Origin: Colwellia sp. 12G3
Lineage (GTDB): Bacteria > Pseudomonadota > Gammaproteobacteria > Enterobacterales > Alteromonadaceae
Assembly (NCBI RefSeq): GCF_002836775.1
Contig: NZ_PJAQ01000043.1
Coordinates: 247,350-311,349, forward strand
Direction of reading: 5' to 3'
DNA length: 64,000 bases
In this document: positions 37,077 through 53,285 of the stretch, one piece after another
Position numbering within the stretch: position 1 is the first letter of the stretch
Layout: every line of letters begins with the position of its first letter
Program-made: the position numbers and the translations under genes
Notes under the pieces: generated by a model
Databases searched by the model: none
What the model was told of the DNA's origin: nothing
What the model saw: only the letters and a program-made list of their open reading frames with translations

Positions 37077-38132
37077 ATGAGCTTAATAATTAAAAACATT
37101 GCACTACATTTTTTGTCTAAAAAAGAAGATACCGGCGAAGTTGTATTACGCCTAGGACCAGAAAATGCTGACTTCGCGCAAGAAGATACAAAAACGTCTA
37201 ACTTTGTTGATGGCTTACATGCCATTTATAATACCAAGGGCAATAAAGCCTATGGCAGTTTTTCAGCGATGCCTGGTGAGGGTGATTCAGCCCGCTTTGT
37301 TGATTTAATGGAAAGCTACCTAACGGAACAGCAAAATTTTTATGATTTTAGTACGCAAGCGGGCAATGTATTAAAAAATGAAATCGAAAAATACGACATT
37401 GAAGAGACAGGTTATTTTGTTATATGTCATTATGAATACATGGGCGGTCGTTACTTATTCGTTGCGGTTATCCCGGTGTCAGAGCATTACAGTGTTGATG
37501 GAGAATTAAATATCTCAGCAGCGCAGCATTTAGACACCACTAAAATGCAACTCGCTGCTCGTATTGATTTATTCGATTATAAAGAAAATACTCACGGTAA
37601 TCGTTATATCTCTTTTATAAAAGGTAGAGCAGGTCGTAAAGTATCAGACTTCTTTTTAGACTTTTTAGGCTGTGAAGAAGGTTTAAACGCTAAAGAGCAA
37701 ACACAAACCTTAGTGCAAGCGGTTGAAGATTATGTTTCGGTTAATCAACTCGACCCAAGCGAAAAGCAAAAAACACGTAAAGATTTATTGAACTACTGTA
37801 AAGAGCAAAAAGCGAGTTCTCAAGATGTGTCACTGCAAGAGGTAGGTAACGTTATTGAAAGTGCAGGTGCAGAACAAGACTTTTATCAGTTCTGCCAAAC
37901 GCAATCTTACCCTATTGAAGATTCTTTTCCGCACGAACAAGCTGTGGTTAACAAAATCACAAAATATTCAGGTTATGGAAATGGTATAAGTTTAAGTTTC
38001 GAACGTAGCCATTTTGGTGAAGACGTCGTTTATAATCCACATAATGACTCATTAGTTATCTATAAAGTACCACCGAATTTAAAAGAACAGTTAATGGCGC
38101 TGCTTGATAGTGAAAAAGTCGAGAGTGAATAG
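37077..38132 (+). CDS. yejK: Nucleoid-associated protein YejK (NdpA)
   Basis: A 351-residue protein of the NdpA/37-kD nucleoid-associated family (335 residues in E. coli). The end shows the typical ISLSFERSHFGEDVVYNP. It associates with the nucleoid and has been reported to touch topoisomerases in E. coli. It is divergent from yejL. A weak inverted repeat (GTAAC/GTTAC near 38175) follows. Confidence 0.92.
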   Translation: MSLIIKNIALHFLSKKEDTGEVVLRLGPENADFAQEDTKTSNFVDGLHAIYNTKGNKAYGSFSAMPGEGDSARFVDLMESYLTEQQNFYDFSTQAGNVLKNEIEKYDIEETGYFVICHYEYMGGRYLFVAVIPVSEHYSVDGELNISAAQHLDTTKMQLAARIDLFDYKENTHGNRYISFIKGRAGRKVSDFFLDFLGCEEGLNAKEQTQTLVQAVEDYVSVNQLDPSEKQKTRKDLLNYCKEQKASSQDVSLQEVGNVIESAGAEQDFYQFCQTQSYPIEDSFPHEQAVVNKITKYSGYGNGISLSFERSHFGEDVVYNPHNDSLVIYKVPPNLKEQLMALLDSEKVESE

Positions 38133-39502: not shown

Positions 39503-40393
39503 ATGCAATTATTTGTAGATGATCTTACCGTTATTGATTTTTCATACCTGTGCAAAGAGCGCGGTATTGTTGGTGAGAGCTGGATTGTTGACGTATTACT
39601 CGACGGGTCGTTAAATGAAATGAGTATGGTGCTAGATTTTGCCGTGGTTAAAAAGCAAATCAAAGCCATTATAGATGATGCCGTTGACCATAAACTGTTA
39701 TTGCCTATTCAAGAGCAAGCCTTAACCTTGGCTGACTCGCCGCATAATGATGGCCATCAAACGGTTGACTTTATCAGTGATGCAGCTAGTTATTATTTAC
39801 AATCTCCAGCATGTGCTTTTGCCTCGATAGACAGTTTAACCATCACAGTACCCGCGGTAACTAAACACCTTACGGCTATTATTTTGACGCACTTGCCAGA
39901 TAATGTGCAAGGTTTGACCTTAGTGTTGCGCCCTGAAAATATTCCTACGGATTATTATCATTATACCCATGGCTTAAAATTGCATGATGGCAATTGCCAA
40001 CGTATCGCACATGGCCATAGATCTAAAATTCAAATCTTAGTTGATGATAAAAGAGACGCTACATTAGAAGCTGCATGGTGCAAGCGCTGGCAAGATATTT
40101 ATATTGCCAGTGAAGCCGATAGAATTTCTGTCGACGATATTGAGTTATCTGCTCAAGCAATAAACAATTTAACACCCGATCATCAATATTTTAGTTACCA
40201 TGCGCCGCAAGGTCGATTTGACATCGCCGTTGACCGCAAAGTCCTTGATGTCGTTGATTGTGATTCAACGGTAGAATTGTTAGCTGATTTTATTTTAAGA
40301 CAAGTCAAGGCCGAACATCCTGAACTAGTAAATAACGAAATAAAGGTTATTGCCTATGAAGGTGTAGCTAAAGGGGCAATTGTTCATGGTTAA
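39503..40393 (+). CDS. Double-domain 6-pyruvoyl-tetrahydropterin synthase / QueD-like protein
   Basis: A 296-residue protein with two PTPS-like halves. The first (about 1-95) has the fold pattern (VDVLLDGSLNEMSMVLDFAVVKKQIK...LDHKLL-like ending) but lacks the zinc His set. The second (about 150-290) has HGLKLHDGNCQRIAHGHRSKI with the His-x-Gly-His typical of QueD. Enzymes of this family act on dihydroneopterin triphosphate for queuosine or pterin synthesis. The gene overlaps the M23 peptidase start, so translation is coupled. Confidence 0.75.
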   Translation: MQLFVDDLTVIDFSYLCKERGIVGESWIVDVLLDGSLNEMSMVLDFAVVKKQIKAIIDDAVDHKLLLPIQEQALTLADSPHNDGHQTVDFISDAASYYLQSPACAFASIDSLTITVPAVTKHLTAIILTHLPDNVQGLTLVLRPENIPTDYYHYTHGLKLHDGNCQRIAHGHRSKIQILVDDKRDATLEAAWCKRWQDIYIASEADRISVDDIELSAQAINNLTPDHQYFSYHAPQGRFDIAVDRKVLDVVDCDSTVELLADFILRQVKAEHPELVNNEIKVIAYEGVAKGAIVHG

Positions 40394-41276
40394 CTCTTTA
40401 ACAGATAATTTACGTAATTCCTTAACGAGTTACTTAGGTAATAAATTAAGCCAAACGCTAATCGCATTGGCACTGGTGAGTTGTTTTACTGTTAGTTATC
40501 AAGTATCGGCCGCTAAAGAAGCGATAGCATTAACCGGTGAAGTTAAGCAAGGCGGTTTAATGGTGGGTAAAACACTTGCCCAAAATACCGTCACCTTAAA
40601 TGGCAAAACAATCACTGTTTCAAACAAGGGTGATTTCACCTTTGGCTTTTCTCGTGATGATATACAAAGTTATCAACTCGTCATTACATCAGTTAATGGT
40701 GATCGGGTGGAGAAAACATTAACGCCACAAAAACGCAGTTATAATATTCAGCGTATTGAGGGCATTAAAAAAAGCATAATGCAGCCAGATCCTAAAGCTG
40801 TTGCCCGAGCGCAACTCGATAGTAAGCAAGTTAAAACAGCTCGAAAAGTAGCGAGCTCACTTAACTATTTTGCCCATGGTTTTGTTGCCCCCATTGAAGG
40901 TACAATCACTGGCGTTTATGGCAGCCAACGTGTTTATAATGGCGTGCCTAAAAATCCACACTTTGGTTTAGATTACGCTGGTAAAACGGGCGATCCGGTA
41001 AAAGCTCCAGCATCGGGTACGGTATTACTGTGGGTACCCGATATGTTTTACTCCGGTGGTACCATGATTATTGATCATGGTCAGGGCGTGAGCTCCACCT
41101 TTTTACACCTAAGTAACTCGTATGTAAAACAAGGTGATAAGATTAAACAAGGGCAGGTAGTCGCAGCAGTTGGTAAAAGCGGCAGAGCAACCGGACCTCA
41201 TTTAGATTGGCGCATTAACTGGTTCGATGTAAAAATTGACCCCGCACTAGTGCTAAAAATACAACCTCTTCATTAA
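40386..41276 (+). CDS. Exported M23 (LytM-type) peptidase
   Basis: A protein of about 296 residues with a signal peptide (hydrophobic about 26-42, cleavage near VSA-AK) and a C-terminal M23 domain. Zinc ligands are visible in HFGLDYAG, FLHLSN and PHLDWRI. It probably cleaves peptidoglycan cross-links or activates amidases in the periplasm. I chose ATG 40386, overlapping the previous stop by eight bases, rather than TTG 40380. The condensin locus begins 39 bases later. Confidence 0.87.
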   Translation: MVNSLTDNLRNSLTSYLGNKLSQTLIALALVSCFTVSYQVSAAKEAIALTGEVKQGGLMVGKTLAQNTVTLNGKTITVSNKGDFTFGFSRDDIQSYQLVITSVNGDRVEKTLTPQKRSYNIQRIEGIKKSIMQPDPKAVARAQLDSKQVKTARKVASSLNYFAHGFVAPIEGTITGVYGSQRVYNGVPKNPHFGLDYAGKTGDPVKAPASGTVLLWVPDMFYSGGTMIIDHGQGVSSTFLHLSNSYVKQGDKIKQGQVVAAVGKSGRATGPHLDWRINWFDVKIDPALVLKIQPLH

Positions 41277-41314: not shown

Positions 41315-44300
41315 ATGGCAGAACATGGCTACTCGCTGCTACGCATTATTATTATTGATAGTTTTTGGCAAGGACAAGTAAACGAACTTGATCTAACGGG
41401 TCACACTCAACTTGAAGGAACAAACGGCGCAGGTAAAACCTCGCTCATGCGATTGTTACCTCTTTTTTATGGCATGCGACCTAGTGATATTGTTAGTAAG
41501 GTTGACCAAGCGAAAAACTTTGCCGACTTTTACTTACCACGCGAGTCCAGTATTTTAGTGTACGAATACGCAAGACCCTTTGGACAAAAATGCCAAGTGT
41601 TAGCCACCAGTGATGGCAGGGGTGTGCACTTTAAGTTTATTGATGCTGCTTACGACAGTCAGCATTTTATTGCCAGTATTACCGGTAGCAAAGCTAAACC
41701 TTTTACACTTAACGAAATAGAAAAAAACTATCGTAATATGGGTAAAGAAAGCTCCAAATTTTTAGGCATAGATAAATACCGTCAAGTTATTCAAAATTTG
41801 CGCAGTGGTCGTAAACACAAAGAAATAAGATTACTACAAAACCGTTTTTCTTTTAGTGAGCAAGCCTGCCCGCATATTGATAAAGTAATTAACGGCACCA
41901 TAGAAAAAAATCTAGATTTTGAAGCGGTTAAACGTATGTTAGTGGCCATTGCCAGTGATCATCTTGCCCGTGACACCCTTGATGAAAAAGAACAGCTCAG
42001 TTTAAATAAAGCCGACATTACTAACTGGCTTGCTGATATTCAAGCGAGTCGCGCTATAAAAAAAGTAGCAGATAAAATATCTGTTTGGCAAAACGACTTT
42101 AGTGCCTTTGCAAGTTTAGTCAATAAGTTACAACATCTTCATGCTGAGATAATAGCGCATCAACAGCGCCTAGAAGTTAAACAGCAACAACGGGATGAAC
42201 TTAAAAAGAGTAGTATTGAAACCCGCGGTAAACTTGAAAGTGAATTAGCAAATACAACCGAACAATATCAAAAAGCCTTGTTTGATCTCATTGCGAAAAT
42301 TGAAGCTGATTTAAGTAAAATTGATTTACTCGATGAAGATAAACTTAACTTTGATGACGATGATGCCAGTAGCTATCAAATAAAAGCCGAGCAAGCCCCC
42401 CAAATTCAAGCTGAACTGAATGAAGTGATAGCCGTTATTGATGCATTTGAAGGGAATATCAGTAAAATAGGGCAAAAATTCGATAAGCTTATTCAGCAAA
42501 TGGAAGTAGAAAAGCTTAAAGCTATCAACAGTAACAAAGAAAAATATTCCCTAATTGCGACTCAGTCTAATGAACAATTATCACACATTAATGAAGTGTT
42601 TCATCAGCAAGAGCATGCCCTTAATGCCCAGTTGCATAAAGAAGAGCTTAAACTGCAAAAAGATCAGCAAATCATACAACATCAATTAGATACGGCTAAT
42701 CAACAACTTAACCAGCCAATAATACCAGCGCAATTATCTATTGATATAGAAGCTAACATTGACGCATTAGCGCACGCTCAGCAAAATACTAATCAACTGG
42801 TACAACAGGCATCTGAATTACAAAAACAACAATATCAACTAGAAAAACAGCAGGATCATCAGCTTACACAACGCAGTGACGTTAATCGATATGCGGAACA
42901 ATTACGACAAGATTACCACCAGGTTGAATTACAACTATTGCCTCAAGCCGACTCTTTACATCATTATCTTATAAATGAACCTCAAGCCACTAATTGGCAA
43001 GACACTATTGGTCGTTTGCTAACAACCGATCAATTATCGCGCTCTGATCTAAATCCACAGTGGCTAGAAAACAGCACCGATAGTAACGCACCAGCAAGTC
43101 TTTATGGTTTATCGATAGATTTACAACAACTACCTTGTAACGATTCTTTATTTTTAGACGAAGTTCAGCTGCGAGAAAAGCGCCAAGTTATTGAAAATAA
43201 GTTACAAACACAAACAGATAAAATTTCACAGCTTGATGAGCAATTAAAATTTATTGCCAAAGAAATTAGTCAGCTAAAAGTTACTGTAACTGAACAAGCA
43301 CAAAGCTTGAATCAGCAACAGCTAACGTTAGGGCAATTGAAAACGCAGCAAGAAAGCTTGATGGTTAAAAAACAGCTCGCCATAAAAGCACATCGCCAAA
43401 CCATAGAAACACAATTACAAACATTTACTCAACAATTAAAAGCCCTTGAGAAAAAGCAGCTTAACTTTGAAGAGAATAAAACGGAACAACTACATGAACT
43501 TACAAACGATAAGTTAGAAAAAAGTATGGTGGTTGAAAGTGATAGAGACAATCAGTTAACGCTATTGTCTGAGCAACTATCAACACTGCTCAGTAATACA
43601 AAACAGCGTTTAACGGACCTTAAAAAGCAGCAAGCTATTGATATTGAAAAACTTGATCCTGAAGGTGAAGTAGATAAACGCATTGCCAAACGGGTGAACT
43701 TAGAAAAAGACTTACTGCAATGTTCAGTCTTTGCCCAAAAGGCGCGCGACTATAACAGCTTTATGAATGAGCGTTATTGTCATCGTGATGCCTTAGCTGA
43801 AGAAAATCAAAACCGAAAAATCATCAAACGTAATATAGAAACAAATTATGAAGATAGTCGTATTGAACTATCGACTAAAATTAACGATTTAAAACAGTTA
43901 ATTAGAAAAAACAATCAAGAAAAACAAGCTACTGATGATTTATTAGTGCAACTTAATGATAATAAACGTTTAAGTGAAATGTCTGCGATCAATAGTGAGT
44001 TTTGTCAGCAAGAGCCCGCAAACCAAGCAGATTTAACCGTTAACTTTTTCCATGATTATTATCAACAGTTTAAGACGATTGAAAAACGCTTGGCTAGTCA
44101 GCTAAATACTTTTAGTGAACGTTTTAGAAAAGATCACTCGGGTAGTGAGCTTTTCGAAAACTGGCAAAAGCTATTGCATGACAACGATAACTATTCCGGT
44201 GCAAAAGCACTCTTTAAATATCGTGAACCCATTAGCGAGTTATTAAATAGCGCCGATCAAAAGCAGCAAAGCACTTATCAACTGGTGACAGTCAATGCCA

Positions 44301-45073
44301 CCATGATCAACGAGTTTTATCAGCACATCGAAAACTTTGGTCGTAATATAAAACGTATTGGTAAATTATTATCAACCAAAGTTACTGCATTAGCGCATTT
44401 TGAAGCGTTGGCTGATATCAATGTCACTACGGTAATGAAGCAAGAAGAGCTCGATTACTGGGGACCATTGCAAAAATTTGCCGAAGTTTTTGAGCTGTAT
44501 AAAGATCAATTACGCGATGGACTTGGCGAAGTACCCGATGATTTAGTCTTCGCTATGCAAAAATTGGCAAGTTATTTACCCAATGAAGGCTTTGTTTTAG
44601 CGCACAACAATTTGTTTGATTTAGAGTTTACTATTGTCGAAAAAGGGCAAGTAAAACATGCGCGTAATGCGAAACAACTTAAAAAGGTCAGTTCAACGGG
44701 CTTATCCTATTTAGCTATGTTGTCTTTATTTGCTGGTTTGTTAGCCATGTTACGTGGTGACAGCAAACATGCGAGCCAAATAATTCTACCGGTAGATGAA
44801 TTAGGTGAACTCGCAGCTGAAAATATAGATCTTTTACTAAAAATGTTTAATGACAACCATATTAGTATGTTATCGGCTTCTCCATCAACAGACCGTCATA
44901 TTTTATCTTTATATAATCGTCATTATAAATTAAAAGATAATAAAATTTATCATGCCGATATTCCGCAATCTCGTTTAGATGAGTTATTAGCGCAGCGTAA
45001 TAAGGCAGCAAACATTACACAACAAGAGCCAGGACAAGATCCTGAAAAAGAGACTGCAGGGGAGTTAAGTTAA
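41315..45073 (+). CDS. MukB/MksB/JetC-like SMC ATPase of a Wadjet-like condensin
   Basis: A 1252-residue SMC-type protein. Walker A is GTNGAGKTS (35-43). Long coiled coils rich in Gln/Leu/Lys run about 240-530 and 620-900, around a hinge-like globular region (about 535-615, with LYGLSIDLQQLP). The C-terminal head carries a signature-like SSTGLSYLAMLSLFAG and Walker B ILPVDELGEL (Asp about 1161, Glu 1162). It has no CxxC zinc hook, so it is not SbcC/Rad50. The architecture fits the MukB, MksB and JetC/EptC group that loads on and extrudes DNA. It may also carry a DUF3584-type label. It overlaps the next gene by one base. Confidence 0.85.
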   Translation: MAEHGYSLLRIIIIDSFWQGQVNELDLTGHTQLEGTNGAGKTSLMRLLPLFYGMRPSDIVSKVDQAKNFADFYLPRESSILVYEYARPFGQKCQVLATSDGRGVHFKFIDAAYDSQHFIASITGSKAKPFTLNEIEKNYRNMGKESSKFLGIDKYRQVIQNLRSGRKHKEIRLLQNRFSFSEQACPHIDKVINGTIEKNLDFEAVKRMLVAIASDHLARDTLDEKEQLSLNKADITNWLADIQASRAIKKVADKISVWQNDFSAFASLVNKLQHLHAEIIAHQQRLEVKQQQRDELKKSSIETRGKLESELANTTEQYQKALFDLIAKIEADLSKIDLLDEDKLNFDDDDASSYQIKAEQAPQIQAELNEVIAVIDAFEGNISKIGQKFDKLIQQMEVEKLKAINSNKEKYSLIATQSNEQLSHINEVFHQQEHALNAQLHKEELKLQKDQQIIQHQLDTANQQLNQPIIPAQLSIDIEANIDALAHAQQNTNQLVQQASELQKQQYQLEKQQDHQLTQRSDVNRYAEQLRQDYHQVELQLLPQADSLHHYLINEPQATNWQDTIGRLLTTDQLSRSDLNPQWLENSTDSNAPASLYGLSIDLQQLPCNDSLFLDEVQLREKRQVIENKLQTQTDKISQLDEQLKFIAKEISQLKVTVTEQAQSLNQQQLTLGQLKTQQESLMVKKQLAIKAHRQTIETQLQTFTQQLKALEKKQLNFEENKTEQLHELTNDKLEKSMVVESDRDNQLTLLSEQLSTLLSNTKQRLTDLKKQQAIDIEKLDPEGEVDKRIAKRVNLEKDLLQCSVFAQKARDYNSFMNERYCHRDALAEENQNRKIIKRNIETNYEDSRIELSTKINDLKQLIRKNNQEKQATDDLLVQLNDNKRLSEMSAINSEFCQQEPANQADLTVNFFHDYYQQFKTIEKRLASQLNTFSERFRKDHSGSELFENWQKLLHDNDNYSGAKALFKYREPISELLNSADQKQQSTYQLVTVNATMINEFYQHIENFGRNIKRIGKLLSTKVTALAHFEALADINVTTVMKQEELDYWGPLQKFAEVFELYKDQLRDGLGEVPDDLVFAMQKLASYLPNEGFVLAHNNLFDLEFTIVEKGQVKHARNAKQLKKVSSTGLSYLAMLSLFAGLLAMLRGDSKHASQIILPVDELGELAAENIDLLLKMFNDNHISMLSASPSTDRHILSLYNRHYKLKDNKIYHADIPQSRLDELLAQRNKAANITQQEPGQDPEKETAGELS

Positions 45074-45696
45074 TGTTTAAACAAACTATTCAAAAGCTAC
45101 TCTGTGGCGCTGTTATTTGTCAAACGGCTTATGAAGCTGAATATCTCTACTTAAAAGCGGAAAGTCAAAACGATAAAGTGAATGATTTTTTATCTAATTT
45201 GGATAGAAAACTTACCTATCTTGATAGTGCTGATGCTTATTACTGTACCTTTAATCAAGTGGATGATAATAATCATCACGATCTCAGTATTCTATTTACT
45301 GAAATGCGTAATACTTTTAGGCCTTTAGTTGAGTTTTTAGATTTATTGTTAACGGCCACGCAAGCTGATTTACCTATTCGAGCTAAATCAGTACTTAATA
45401 TTAATGAATTATTCGAACCCTTTGAACATGATCAAACGCTGAGTGAACAATTACGTCGGTTAACATCGATAAAACCGTTCAAGACAAATAAAACAGAAAC
45501 GCGTGAACAACTCGTAATGGTTTTTCAAAAGCTTGAAGAAATGCAGTATTTTGTTCGTAAAAATACTGGCAGCAGTAGATATTACGCTACAGCACGTTTT
45601 GACTTGATTTATTTACTGATAGAATTCTTAAACGATGCCGAGCTTGTCAGTTTGCCTGAACAAGAGAAAAGCCAACAAGACGAGCTATTATTCTAA
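45073..45696 (+). CDS. MukE/MksE/JetB-like condensin subunit
   Basis: A 207-residue acidic protein starting inside the SMC stop (TTAATG). The predicted helices and the C-terminal winged-helix-like part (SSRYYATARFDLIYLLIEFLND) fit the MukE/JetB class of accessory subunits, which bind the kleisin. Primary-sequence similarity is weak, so size, position and partners carry the assignment. Confidence 0.65.
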   Translation: MFKQTIQKLLCGAVICQTAYEAEYLYLKAESQNDKVNDFLSNLDRKLTYLDSADAYYCTFNQVDDNNHHDLSILFTEMRNTFRPLVEFLDLLLTATQADLPIRAKSVLNINELFEPFEHDQTLSEQLRRLTSIKPFKTNKTETREQLVMVFQKLEEMQYFVRKNTGSSRYYATARFDLIYLLIEFLNDAELVSLPEQEKSQQDELLF

Positions 45697-45733
45697 TGAA
45701 AAGTTTTAATAAAAGCTTTAATGGAGAATTATA

Positions 45734-47005
45734 ATGGCTGGTTTTGATTCTTCACAAGTTGCCACTTTGCTCAGACAAATTGGCGCATATAATGACTTAC
45801 TAGCTAGTGCCTATGTTTATGGCTCGATAGCGAGTGATGAGCAAGATGCTAACACCATTAGTTTGTTACATAAATCGGGTTTGATCAGACCCGATGAATC
45901 TCCTGGTGAATATCGAGTAACTACCGATCTTAAACGCATGTTAAATCGACTAATGCGCAAACAATCAAGTTATCGACAACTTACCGATATGGGGAAAGTG
46001 ATTGATGCAATTGATGAAGTGGCAAAAGACTATCAACTGGCGATACAGGCCAAAGAGCAGGAAGATGCCGAGTATTATTTAGATCAACTTGATGATTTAC
46101 TTTACGAAACCAAAGACAGTTTAAACAATAATTTAGACAATATGCATTTTGCCATTGTTAGTCAGTTTGGTTTTGTGAATAGTTTATCTAACAAAATACG
46201 CCAGAATGAACGCTATCTTTCACATGCACAAAAACTGCTCAATGAACTTCAGCAAATTGACCCACAAGATTGTTACGAGTGGCTAGATTGGGCATGTCCG
46301 AATGAGTTTGCCCGTAAAATATCGGGTTTTGTCTACTGGTATAATCAAATTTTACCTAAGCTGCGTTTAATTATTGATAACATGCGCATTAGCTTATTCC
46401 GCTTACGTAGAGATGAAAAACAGGCCAGTCAATTACGAAATATGGCGCGTTTTTTACGTAAACATCCTGAATTTGATCTTGATGAAAACCTATTTGAGCT
46501 ACCAAACATACCAGAAACACTAAAATATTCGCCGCCAATGCCGCTGCGAAGTTATGTAGATACGAAGCAAACCGGTATTGAACAACCTTTACTTTTATTG
46601 GTGCAATCATTACGTAAGCAAGCCGTTGTAACACCGATTAAAGCCAGAACAACCAGTGAAGTTAGCTTTAAACCCATCGAAAATATTGCTGCGGAAGAAG
46701 ACTTTTTTGAACAACAAACAGAATTATTATTCGAGCGCGTGATCATAAATAACTGCGCAGTCTCAGCATTAGGTTTTTACCAAGAGTTTCAAAATACTTG
46801 GCTTGAAAAATCACAATCTATTGCACCAAAATCTTGGATCGAGTTAGTGTTTAGTTGCTACTGCAAGTTAACTAGCGCACAACAAAATGCATTGAATATA
46901 AAAATGAAAGGCGTTGCTGTTAAAGGTACAACGGATAATTATGGTTATAGTGATGTAGTTATCGAATTAAGATCAGAGTTGAGAGCTGAACTGAGAGCAA
47001 GTTAA
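45734..47005 (+). CDS. MukF/MksF/JetA-like kleisin subunit
   Basis: A 423-residue protein with an N-terminal winged-helix pattern (LLHKSGLIRPDESPGEYRV; about 36-75), a middle helical bundle (about 80-240) and a C-terminal domain (about 330-410). This is the layout of MukF-type kleisins that bridge SMC heads. GGAG eight bases before the ATG is a good ribosome site. It is 37 bases downstream of the MukE-like gene. Assignment is mainly by context and domain pattern. Confidence 0.65.
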   Translation: MAGFDSSQVATLLRQIGAYNDLLASAYVYGSIASDEQDANTISLLHKSGLIRPDESPGEYRVTTDLKRMLNRLMRKQSSYRQLTDMGKVIDAIDEVAKDYQLAIQAKEQEDAEYYLDQLDDLLYETKDSLNNNLDNMHFAIVSQFGFVNSLSNKIRQNERYLSHAQKLLNELQQIDPQDCYEWLDWACPNEFARKISGFVYWYNQILPKLRLIIDNMRISLFRLRRDEKQASQLRNMARFLRKHPEFDLDENLFELPNIPETLKYSPPMPLRSYVDTKQTGIEQPLLLLVQSLRKQAVVTPIKARTTSEVSFKPIENIAAEEDFFEQQTELLFERVIINNCAVSALGFYQEFQNTWLEKSQSIAPKSWIELVFSCYCKLTSAQQNALNIKMKGVAVKGTTDNYGYSDVVIELRSELRAELRAS

Positions 47006-47074
47006 TCGCTTATGGTTTTAACCTTACTCTGTTACTTGCTACGTTATGTACTTAACAGGTCATTGAAAACGTTG

Positions 47075-47138
47075 TCTTCGATTTGCTATCGAAGATCCAT
47101 TATCTTCGCTTGTATTCCAAAAATACGGTGGGAATACA
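47075..47138 (+). promoter_or_regulatory. Alternative-hairpin leader before the JetD-like gene
   Basis: Segment 2 (ATCGAAGAT, 47088-47096) can pair with segment 1 (TCTTCGAT, 47075-47082) or with segment 3 (ATCTTCG, 47102-47108), not both. A further hairpin TGTATTCC / GGAATACA follows (47111-47138). The 178-base gap 47006-47183 has no gene. This looks like an attenuator-type leader or small internal promoter region; function is unproven. Confidence 0.4.
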
Positions 47139-47183
47139 TGAGCCTGTTTAATCCGTTCTACACCGATAGCAAAGGAATGCAAA

Positions 47184-48107
47184 ATGAAAGTAACAATCAA
47201 CAAACAACTTTATAATTTCACCCAAGATAAATTACAAAAACATCGGCAGGGTGGCCAAATAAAAAACTCATCCTTAGCAACAAAGCTGTATGAAGAATAT
47301 AATTTTGGTCAATTTGATGTTAATAAACAATGGTTAACCTTTAGTCTCGACAATATTTTAGCTCTAAGTGAAGAAATTAACGGCGTTCTTGGCCTTGATA
47401 TAAGACAAGATCCTTATCCTACTAGCGAAGATAGGTTAACCACGTCAGAAAAATCTCGAAATGAAAAAGCGAATAGTTATGCTGTCAGTAAAGAGTTTGT
47501 CTTAATTAATAGTTTATCTGAAGTGAAAATCAACCAAAGCTGCTATAAAATATCACCCTTAACTTCGTTAGGTGCCTATATAAAAGCTGAGGAAATTCAA
47601 TCTATTGAGCACAGTGCTGTTGTTTTAGTTGAAAACCTTGCCGTGATGGCTAACCTCAGTTCAATCAACTTAACCTCCATCGATAATACACTAGATTTAA
47701 CCCAAGCTTTGTGGCTTTATCGTGGAGATGTTAAAGCACAACAGACAACTACTACCAGTTATCAATTTTTTCGCCATTTTAAAGGAAACATCCCATTAAT
47801 TTGTTTTAGTGACCTTGACCCTAAAGGCATTGAAATTGCGCTTACCAGTCATGCAGATTTTTGGCTAACCCTTAAAAATACAAACGACGTCACTATGCCA
47901 TTATTGGGTAATGAACAAGAATGGTATAAGCAGAGCGCATCGGTTTCTTATTTATCTGATAAAATGAAGAAATACATAAGCCAAGAAACAGAAAATGTTT
48001 GCTGGCAGGGTGTTTTTAACACGCTCTTAAACCACAGAAAAACCCTGAAACAAGAGCATATGCTTAAACATAAACTCGCCTTAACCTTAATAAGCCTCAA
48101 AGAGTAA
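47184..48107 (+). CDS. JetD-like Toprim (DUF2220-type) nuclease subunit
   Basis: A 307-residue protein. The C-terminal half has a Toprim pattern: VVLVEN (Glu150), then FSDLDPKGIE with Asp210, Asp212 and Gly215, close to the DxDPxG motif of topoisomerase VI A, Spo11 and JetD. The N-terminal 130 residues would be the DNA-binding (DUF3322-like) part. In Wadjet systems JetD cuts DNA trapped by the condensin. AAGGA seven bases before the ATG fixes the start. It follows the kleisin-like gene after a structured leader. Confidence 0.72.
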   Translation: MKVTINKQLYNFTQDKLQKHRQGGQIKNSSLATKLYEEYNFGQFDVNKQWLTFSLDNILALSEEINGVLGLDIRQDPYPTSEDRLTTSEKSRNEKANSYAVSKEFVLINSLSEVKINQSCYKISPLTSLGAYIKAEEIQSIEHSAVVLVENLAVMANLSSINLTSIDNTLDLTQALWLYRGDVKAQQTTTTSYQFFRHFKGNIPLICFSDLDPKGIEIALTSHADFWLTLKNTNDVTMPLLGNEQEWYKQSASVSYLSDKMKKYISQETENVCWQGVFNTLLNHRKTLKQEHMLKHKLALTLISLKE

Positions 48108-51989: not shown

Positions 51990-52043
51990 GGTATAATGAA
52001 TTAAACTAGCTTCATATGTCCTATCTGCTTGGTTTTACAAATA

Positions 52044-53285
52044 ATGTTATTAAATAAACCTGTCCCTTTATACCCACCATATGTCGATTTATGTGATTTC
52101 GATTTTGATGACTATCCTGAGTTAGATAAAATATTCTCATCAAATGAACCTTGGTGGCTCGAACAATTTAACTGGGGAAAAATTTTCCTTACCTATATAG
52201 GTAGAAACAAATCTGCTCATACTTATGAGCGATTTAGAAATGACGTTGAACGTTTTTTATTATGGTCATTCATTGAAAAGAAAAAACCAATAGACCAATT
52301 ACGTAAATCAGACTTGCTTGAGTATGCTGACTTTTGTTGGCAACCACCAGTGACTTGGATTGGCACATCTAATCAAGAACGTTTTAAAATTACCAATGGT
52401 TATTCTTCTGCAAATGAACTTTGGTTTCCATATAAAATTCAATCGCCTAAAAGTTTAAAATCTGAATACGTTATTGATAAGAAAAAATATCGTCCATCGC
52501 AACAAACACTTTCATCGATGTTTACCGCAATCATCGTTTTCTATAACTACTTAATGGCTGAGGATTTTTGTATTGGTAACCCTGCACAAATCGCTAAAAA
52601 AGATTGCCGACATTTCATCATCGACTCACAAGTTAAAGAAGTTAAACGTTTAACGGCTAGTCAATGGCAATATGTTTTAGATACAGCGGTTGAAATGGCT
52701 GATGAAGATCCCATGTGTGAACGTAATTTATTTGTTATTGCTGCCTTAAAAACGCTGTTTTTAAGAATTTCTGAGTTATCTGAACGACCTAATTGGTCAC
52801 CTGCTATGGGACATTTTTGGCAAGATGATGATGAAAATTGGTGGCTTAAAGTCTTTGGTAAAAGCCGTAAAATACGTGATATTACTGTGCCCATTGATTT
52901 TTTACCTTTTTTAGAGCGTTATCGTGCTTCCCGAGGTTTATTAGGTTTGCCATCAAGCAATGAAAATTCGATTCTGGTTGAAAAAGTACGTGGTCAAGGC
53001 GGTATGACATCTCGACATTTACGACGTTTAGTTCAAAGTGTTTTCGACCAAGCACATGACAATATGCGCAGATCGGAAGGTGAAAATAAGGCGCTCAAAT
53101 TGAAAGAAGCTTCTGCCCATTGGTTGAGACATACTGGTGCAAGTATGGAAATTGAACGTGGGCGCCCTCTTAAAGATATTTCAGAAGATCTTGGTCATGC
53201 AAGTATGGCAACGACTGACACTGTTTATGTTCAAAGTGAGAATAAGAAACGTGCTGAAAGTGGTAAACGAAGAAAAGTAGATTAA
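52044..53285 (+). CDS. Tyrosine recombinase (phage-integrase family)
   Basis: A protein of about 413 residues: N-terminal SAM-like DNA-binding domain (about 40-190) and C-terminal catalytic domain. Catalytic residues appear in FLRISEL (Arg), GKSRKIRDI (Lys), HWLRHTGAS (His-x-x-Arg), LGHASMATTD (His) and TVYV (Tyr nucleophile). All are present, so it should cut and rejoin DNA. I chose ATG 52044; TTG 52029 would add five residues. No other phage or island gene adjoins it. Large palindromes lie on both sides. Confidence 0.88.
   Translation: MLLNKPVPLYPPYVDLCDFDFDDYPELDKIFSSNEPWWLEQFNWGKIFLTYIGRNKSAHTYERFRNDVERFLLWSFIEKKKPIDQLRKSDLLEYADFCWQPPVTWIGTSNQERFKITNGYSSANELWFPYKIQSPKSLKSEYVIDKKKYRPSQQTLSSMFTAIIVFYNYLMAEDFCIGNPAQIAKKDCRHFIIDSQVKEVKRLTASQWQYVLDTAVEMADEDPMCERNLFVIAALKTLFLRISELSERPNWSPAMGHFWQDDDENWWLKVFGKSRKIRDITVPIDFLPFLERYRASRGLLGLPSSNENSILVEKVRGQGGMTSRHLRRLVQSVFDQAHDNMRRSEGENKALKLKEASAHWLRHTGASMEIERGRPLKDISEDLGHASMATTDTVYVQSENKKRAESGKRRKVD

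Follow-up and report, generated by a model that had tools for sequence, protein, structure and literature searches.

A four-gene operon of Colwellia sp. 12G3 probably encodes a Wadjet-like plasmid-restriction machine. By analogy with known systems, it would combine a condensin of the MukBEF/MksBEF class with a Toprim nuclease of the topoisomerase VI A subunit (Topo VIA) type, forming a branch outside Wadjet types I-III. The operon lies in a stretch of 64,000 nucleotides (contig NZ_PJAQ01000043.1 of assembly GCF_002836775.1, positions 247,350 to 311,349), referred to as the window; positions below count from its first letter. The genes encode an SMC ATPase, a KITE subunit (identified at the level of its family), a kleisin and a nuclease. 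The catalytic residues are conserved, the gene order recurs throughout the taxonomic order of the host, the nuclease and the SMC protein share their history, and the nuclease has turned over while the core was kept. An earlier reading, made from the letters and their translations (the sequence-only reading), had proposed this composition. The SMC motifs, the MukF-like fold, the MksE matches and the Toprim model agree with it, and a search for open reading frames (ORFs) recovered the four genes exactly where it had placed them.

In the proposed mechanism, the ATP-driven SMC-KITE-kleisin motor would reel in DNA, as in Wadjet. On a small closed circle, extrusion would run to completion and unlock the nuclease, which would otherwise stay inactive and would then make a metal-dependent cut. 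The chromosome would be spared, since extrusion there would never complete. This scheme of motor extrusion and nuclease action is drawn from passages of two Wadjet papers (PMC10586767, PMC10123090). Assembly of the complex, loop extrusion, plasmid cutting and a chromosomal role are what we infer for the Colwellia proteins by analogy.

Subunits of the operon

The nuclease matches Pfam DUF7281 with 133 bits. In its structural model (pLDDT 85.7, pTM 0.66), we read a winged helix at residues ~1–70, joined by a loose linker to a Toprim domain at ~105–304. By VIA-align, the Toprim part (residues 100–305) is matched by Topo VIA at Z 11.9 (178 aligned, 4.0 Å), MksG (8b7f) at Z 11.4 (157 aligned), JetD (7til) at Z 10.2 (160 aligned) and Spo11 at Z 10.0, and other Toprim proteins drop to Z ≤6.4. 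Foldseek gave six matches below 0.001, every one of them Topo VIA. The Toprim domain that the sequence-only reading had assumed from residues Glu150, Asp210, Asp212 and Gly215 is thus present in the model, in a Topo VIA/JetD-type form. E150, D210 and D212 are invariant in 30/30 aligned relatives. Across 59 homologues, including plasmid and phage copies, R84, K95, E150, N151, R180, D210 and D212 are identical in all, and G215 is kept in 58. R84 and K95 sit in the linker. No conserved tyrosine is found in the winged helix of the 59 homologues, which argues against a topoisomerase role; a hydrolytic nuclease is therefore expected. On this model, the 307-residue protein is predicted to be a winged-helix and Toprim nuclease of the Topo VIA/JetD/MksG class.

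The SMC protein matches Pfam DUF3584 with 1079 bits over residues 12–1208. In an alignment of 28 sequences, the Walker A residues G35, N37, G40, K41 and T42, the signature residues S1126, S1127 and G1129, and the Walker B residues D1161 and E1162 are all invariant. The SMC ATPase recognised earlier from Walker A at 35–43 and Walker B near 1161 is borne out by these motifs and by the family match.

For the 207-residue protein, a MukE-like identity had been claimed. Its family points that way, as 30/40 relatives match Pfam MksE (PF21980; best 3.1e-9) and 12/40 match DUF4194 (JetB), but the window protein itself has no match to the MksE, DUF4194 or JetB models. We therefore assign it as a putative KITE, from its relatives and at family level only. 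The 423-residue protein has no match to the JetA model and no relevant sequence family, either in its own searches or in those of its relatives. Its AlphaFold2 model, built from a 41-row alignment (pLDDT 75.6), shows in our reading of the secondary structure winged-helix-like ends with a long helical bundle between them, in line with the winged-helix protein described earlier. In the Protein Data Bank (PDB), the top four Foldseek matches are MukBEF/MukEF chains with lengths fitting MukF, and the best of them (E 9e-4) is the sole match below 0.001. By VIA-align, MukF rows reach Z 11.0–12.3 with 165–297 residues aligned, and the Wadjet-II JetABC chain 9qe0_E reaches Z 10.5. Judged by its model, the 423-residue protein is a predicted kleisin, MukF-like at the level of the fold. 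A relation to MukF is thus supported by the fold of the 423-residue protein, and one to MukE is suggested for the 207-residue protein by its family.

Several results weigh against these assignments. For the kleisin model, VIA-align ranks a syntaxin first (Z 12.4), slightly ahead of MukF, and lists other bundles as well. Since syntaxin tops the list, the helical bundle alone proves little, and the kleisin case therefore rests on the domain order and on the top rank of MukF in Foldseek. The confidence of the model is moderate (pTM 0.39). The program hhalign joins neither the KITE to MukE/JetB nor the kleisin to MukF/JetA profiles; it links the SMC protein to one MukB weakly (probability 17%, E 1e-3), and likewise the nuclease to the single JetD of genome G352, a member of the same genus (probability 24%, E 8e-4). 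PDB sequence searches with the nuclease, KITE and kleisin gave no Wadjet or Muk chain, and none is among the 60 of 139 matches listed for the SMC protein, which are mostly coiled coils.

Table 1. Genes of the operon and its flanks in the window
Feature	Position	Strand	Remarks
SMC-type ATPase gene (JetC/MksB-like)	41315..45073	+	1252 aa; ORF and Pfam DUF3584 (PF12128)
KITE-type subunit gene (JetB/MksE-like)	45073..45696	+	207 aa; putative, identity from family matches of relatives
Kleisin gene (JetA/MukF-like)	45734..47005	+	423 aa; from predicted fold
Nuclease gene (JetD/MksG-like)	47184..48107	+	307 aa; Pfam DUF7281 (PF23947) and model
M23 peptidase gene	40380..41276	+	38 nt upstream of SMC gene; left border
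YejK-type nucleoid-associated protein gene	37077..38132	+	Pfam NA37 (PF04245), 2.6e-87; start of left flank
Right-hand neighbour gene	52029..53285	+	flanks the empty site of G247 on the right

Gene order and relation to the Wadjet types

We sampled 148 genomes of the host's taxonomic order, in which DUF3584 is above the cut-off in 57 and DUF7281 in 34. All 57 DUF3584 loci, the window included, were read, and one (L119) was dropped with its SMC gene cut by a contig end. In all 56 readable loci, the KITE and then the kleisin gene follow the SMC gene on the same strand (one kleisin leaves its contig). The SMC and KITE genes overlap by 1–8 bases in 38/55 loci, and by one base in the window; the KITE and kleisin genes overlap in 46/52. 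The nuclease gene overlaps the kleisin gene in 14/29 measured loci and lies ≤32 bases away in 11 more, and the gap in the window is 178 bases. Because order and strand repeat in 56/56 loci, their recurrence is far beyond chance. The order C-B-A-D given by the sequence-only reading is correct. It had been taken for a reordering, however, and the survey of relatives that this reading called for reveals SMC-KITE-kleisin as the standing arrangement of the family. Promoter and terminator patterns occur about as often as in shuffled sequence.

Mobile elements carry the same arrangement. A tblastn search with the window SMC protein matched 45 plasmid records and a single phage, each of them distant, and 16 regions were chosen for viewing (15 plasmid records and the phage). 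In 14 of them (13 plasmid, 1 phage), the KITE, kleisin and nuclease genes stand in order behind the SMC gene, with the nuclease profile at E ≤6.2e-18 in each. Together with the 56 loci of the taxonomic order, this rules out the reversed order as a local accident. The hosts are Vibrio (3), Pseudomonas (2), Acinetobacter (2), and one each of Aromatoleum, Enterobacter, Rhodoferax, Azospira, Polaromonas, Marinobacter and a Dolichospermum phage. In the Enterobacter copy, the SMC gene is broken by an insertion element, with Tn7-like transposition genes and a WYL regulator alongside. One Vibrio copy has its SMC and kleisin each annotated in two pieces, and another viewed region (L201) is an SMC fragment adjoining an insertion sequence. 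The mobile SMC proteins are annotated 'ATP-binding protein' ('hypothetical protein' in the phage), and the other subunits 'hypothetical protein', except for two Acinetobacter nucleases annotated DUF2399.

Some of these loci deserve separate mention. The phage Dfl-JY45 (L193) carries the four-gene operon on a genome of 209 kb, where it may act against competing circular DNA. A yejK gene lies close to the operon not only in the window's genus (Table 1) but also on a Vibrio campbellii plasmid (L191:9523-10524). On a Parabacteroides plasmid record (L203:6206-11636), a KITE-like gene (E 9.6e-10) and a 395-aa gene precede a DUF3584-like SMC gene, with no nuclease; this is perhaps a kleisin-KITE-SMC order in Bacteroidota. 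Within the host's taxonomic order, locus L072 (G110) has ~4.9 kb with other ORFs between the kleisin and nuclease genes, and its nuclease frame is open. Three genomes (G113, G012 and G101) have DUF7281-like matches without DUF3584 above the cut-off, and in G113 a weak SMC match lies ~3 kb from such a match. They are possibly more divergent branches.

In the three Wadjet types, the genes usually run kleisin-KITE-SMC-nuclease. One genome of the window's genus, G352, has a textbook type I JetA-B-C-D operon in this canonical order (L176:7591-14511), whose proteins match the Jet models strongly (JetA 4.6e-142, JetB 1.9e-58, JetC 0, JetD 1.8e-125). By gene order and profile matches, the DUF3584 operon falls outside types I-III, with the nuclease as a partial exception: it matches the PADLOC JetD1 model weakly (E 5.7e-6). 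We consider it very unlikely that the operon is a type I-III member which the library models missed through divergence alone. Such a view can draw on the PADLOC matches of the relatives, namely those of the nuclease to JetD1 (13/30) and JetD3 (12/30; both E 0.01), of the KITE to JetB1 (9/40, E 0.1) and of the SMC protein to JetC1 (9/28, E 0.001). Against it, the window SMC protein matches only JetC3 among the type models (E 0.036), its profile has no hhalign match to JetC, the window has no JetA or JetB match, the gene order differs and the JetA-B-C-D of G352 is clearly separate. In line with the divergence noted by the sequence-only reading, the type I-III models give weak matches or none to the window proteins.

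Turnover of the nuclease and chromosomal setting

The nuclease state could be judged in 54 loci of the taxonomic order, after two at contig ends (L105 and L120) were set aside. Of these, 33 have a nuclease gene downstream of the kleisin gene (31 found by profile, one truncated at a contig end and one divergent); in the other 21 the nuclease is absent and the core is kept. None of the 21 nuclease-less genomes has a DUF7281 match. That an absent nuclease hides as a divergent gene was rejected in general; the sole case is the 344-aa protein of G088, counted as nuclease-bearing. The nuclease accompanies all 14 mobile loci that have KITE and kleisin vs 33/54 here (Fisher p 0.003, on rows that are neither random nor independent). 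A quick tree of SMC proteins, scored in 69 rows (43 with and 26 without a nuclease), requires at least 15 changes of state, or 16 before L120 was set aside. L103, with its SMC gene split by a stop, was left out of the SMC tree, and L074, whose nuclease frame starts further upstream and spans 541 aa, was left out of the nuclease tree. Distances between the nucleases track those between the SMC proteins (Spearman 0.87, Mantel r 0.94, p 0.001, 40 rows), a pattern that favours mostly joint inheritance and repeated loss over free exchange. In several genera, the same gene comes next downstream whether the nuclease is present or absent.

The window's genus displays both states. The SMC gene is complete in 17 of its loci; 12 of these include the nuclease and five do not. 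Two of the five retain nuclease scraps (22 residues at 77% identity in G362 and 17 at 88% in G340), and loss is therefore demonstrated in these two. The median ratio of nonsynonymous to synonymous substitution rates (dN/dS) among nuclease-less congeners is 0.062 for SMC, 0.022 for KITE and 0.041 for kleisin (10 pairs each); in nuclease-bearing pairs it is 0.074, 0.029 and 0.056, with 0.167 for the nuclease itself. The nuclease is an accessory to the SMC-KITE-kleisin core. The core probably has a second, nuclease-independent role in chromosome or plasmid management, with the chromosome as the likeliest target; such a second use would explain why it outlives a lost nuclease. The sequence-only reading had offered a Wadjet branch or a MukBEF-like system. 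These are not alternatives, since the core persists whether or not a nuclease accompanies it, even within a single genus.

On the other hand, some observations count against this picture of loss with a maintained core. The remaining three nuclease-less genus-mates have no nuclease scrap at all. In the window's genus, synonymous divergence (dS) has almost saturated, and each branch may include a stretch from before the loss. Genus f6g13 offers a single nuclease-less pair that could be measured, with dN/dS of 0.132 for SMC and 0.105 for kleisin, compared with 0.024 and 0.019 in nuclease-bearing pairs, which points to relaxed selection there. This pair would suit a pure defence module at a stable site, whose nuclease-less copies are defective leftovers en route to loss, and so would the four-gene copies on plasmids and the phage and the patchy presence of the operon in the genus, with one site wholly empty (see below). 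We think this unlikely. The nuclease-less copies of the genus keep SMC, KITE and kleisin open under strong purifying selection, and genera g2 and g3 of family f1 form a wholly nuclease-less group (4/4 loci), hardly expected of decaying leftovers.

Elsewhere, a nuclease-less locus (L077, G064) carries, 54 bases beyond the kleisin, a gene for 148 aa (L077:6237-6683) that we take to resemble an HNH nuclease. It is perhaps another effector in the nuclease slot.

The 19 loci read in the window's genus (the window and 18 others, two of them cut in the SMC gene) all occupy one site behind yejK-pyrC-PTPS-M23. In several genus-mates, a homologue of the right-hand neighbour comes next after the operon or is separated from it by a few ORFs. 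DUF3584 is present in 20 of the 39 genomes of the genus and missing in 19. One of the latter, the single-contig genome G247, retains the left flank (71–85% protein identity) and the right-hand neighbour (74%). Between the aligned flank ends lie ~650 bases with no operon trace (contig about 451201-451856), including a short stretch that resembles the end of a tyrosine recombinase.

We also searched the host genomes for other condensins. In the window genome (completeness 100%), profile searches gave no match to ScpA, MukF (KicB) or MukB, and no Smc was found (best TIGR02168 match 28.8 bits vs a cut-off of 567). ScpA, MukF, full Smc and full MukB were likewise not found in 8/8 sampled genomes of another genus, f11g18, and in 3/3 DUF3584-bearing genomes of family f3. 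A MukB match in one f11g18 genome (G125; 23.8 bits at a cut-off of 23, 55/226 positions, 544-aa frame) was rejected as the P-loop of another protein. Smc was searched in 24 genomes, within the window's genus in the window genome only. ScpA is present in 184/196 genomes of the window's family; it is absent in 8/8 sampled genus members, the window included, vs 4/188 other family genomes. None of the 39 genus genomes has MukB above the cut-off, and a strong JetC/MksB-type P-loop occurs only in G352. The ~1300-aa SMC-like ORFs of the genus were rejected as condensins. Of seven such loci read, one is JetC of G352 and six look like what we take to be SbcC beside SbcD; the G247 copy lies outside these seven.

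Across the taxonomic order, ScpA occurs in 41 of the 57 DUF3584 genomes and MukF in one more (G114). Of the remaining 15, 12 have no Smc, G027 has one, and G075 and G096 were outside the Smc test. According to the part of one study used here, MksBEF typically co-occurs with SMC-ScpAB or MukBEF (PMC7485682). Because ScpA, MukF, MukB and Smc were not found in them, the nuclease-armed complex may be the sole condensin in the window genome, f11g18 and the f3 lineage, as far as profile searches go. The evidence against this is as strong as the evidence for it. The 19 genus genomes without DUF3584 also lack MukB above the cut-off, and the six sampled for ScpA lack it; they have either no condensin or one of a novel kind.

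These data bear on a further explanation, in which the DUF3584 complex is chiefly a chromosomal condensin that replaces SMC-ScpAB or MukBEF, and the nuclease is a regulatory helper and no weapon. The missing condensins in the window genome, f11g18 and f3, the absence of ScpA from the sampled genus members, the fixed site of the operon close behind housekeeping genes and the core retained without a nuclease are all in its favour. We regard it as rather unlikely, given that only 20/39 genus genomes have DUF3584, that 41/57 DUF3584 genomes of the taxonomic order also have ScpA, that the winged helix of the nuclease has no conserved tyrosine, and that G247 keeps the flanks with no operon, ScpA, MukB or DUF3584. 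Without the operon or a known condensin, G247 indicates that the complex is dispensable there, unless another condensin stands in. If G247 is truly condensin-free, the genus can do without such a complex; should an unrecognised condensin be present there, the window genome may have one too. A Wadjet-like restriction machine remains our preferred reading. Tentatively, and with some doubt, we speculate that in the window's genus and at least one other (f11g18, 8/8 sampled species) the nuclease-bearing complex is the only condensin, serving both to fold the chromosome and to destroy small circles. Repeated loss of the nuclease would then leave a plain condensin, a living intermediate on the proposed path from Wadjet to MukBEF/MksBEF.

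Comparison with known systems

Our literature search did not find DUF3584/DUF7281 described as a condensin-nuclease system, and an earlier description may exist. Several distant MksBEF families are known, as stated in part of one study (PMC7485682). In the passages drawn on here, a 2023 review treats as unresolved where Wadjet came from and how it is related to MukBEF/MksBEF, and describes chromosomal loop extrusion as undocumented for any JetABCD (PMC10586767). Both questions become testable in this family, because a single chromosomal site holds closely related operons that have or lack the nuclease, and because searches in some hosts turned up no other condensin. The locus may illustrate the interconversion of plasmid defence and chromosome folding. 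It also points to a function for gene families that are mostly annotated 'hypothetical protein' in the named records examined, some of them on large conjugative plasmids.

The nuclease resembles the A subunit of topoisomerase VI and Spo11 in its winged helix and Toprim domain. It differs from them in the lack of a conserved winged-helix tyrosine, and its partner is a condensin rather than Topo VIB. With MukBEF, the operon shares the kleisin fold and the SMC/KITE/kleisin plan, whereas the MukF and MukB families were not found in the window genome, and the KITE and kleisin have no significant profile match to MukBEF and the SMC protein a weak one. The nuclease-free MksBEF of Pseudomonas is similar in that most KITE relatives, though not the window protein itself, match MksE and the core can stand without a nuclease. 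In contrast to it, the gene order here is reversed and nuclease loss is visible within genera.

The operon is closest to Wadjet (JetABCD types I-III), MksBEFG of Corynebacterium and EptABCD, all operons of SMC, KITE, kleisin and a CAP-Toprim nuclease. In Wadjet, the cleavage of circular plasmids depends on ATP and on all four subunits. The predicted Toprim domain matches those of JetD and MksG, with conserved acidic residues. Unlike Wadjet, the operon runs SMC-KITE-kleisin-nuclease instead of the canonical kleisin-KITE-SMC-nuclease seen in G352. Its nuclease is also shorter, at ~300 aa compared with the 407-aa JetD of G352, and has been lost repeatedly while the core stays.

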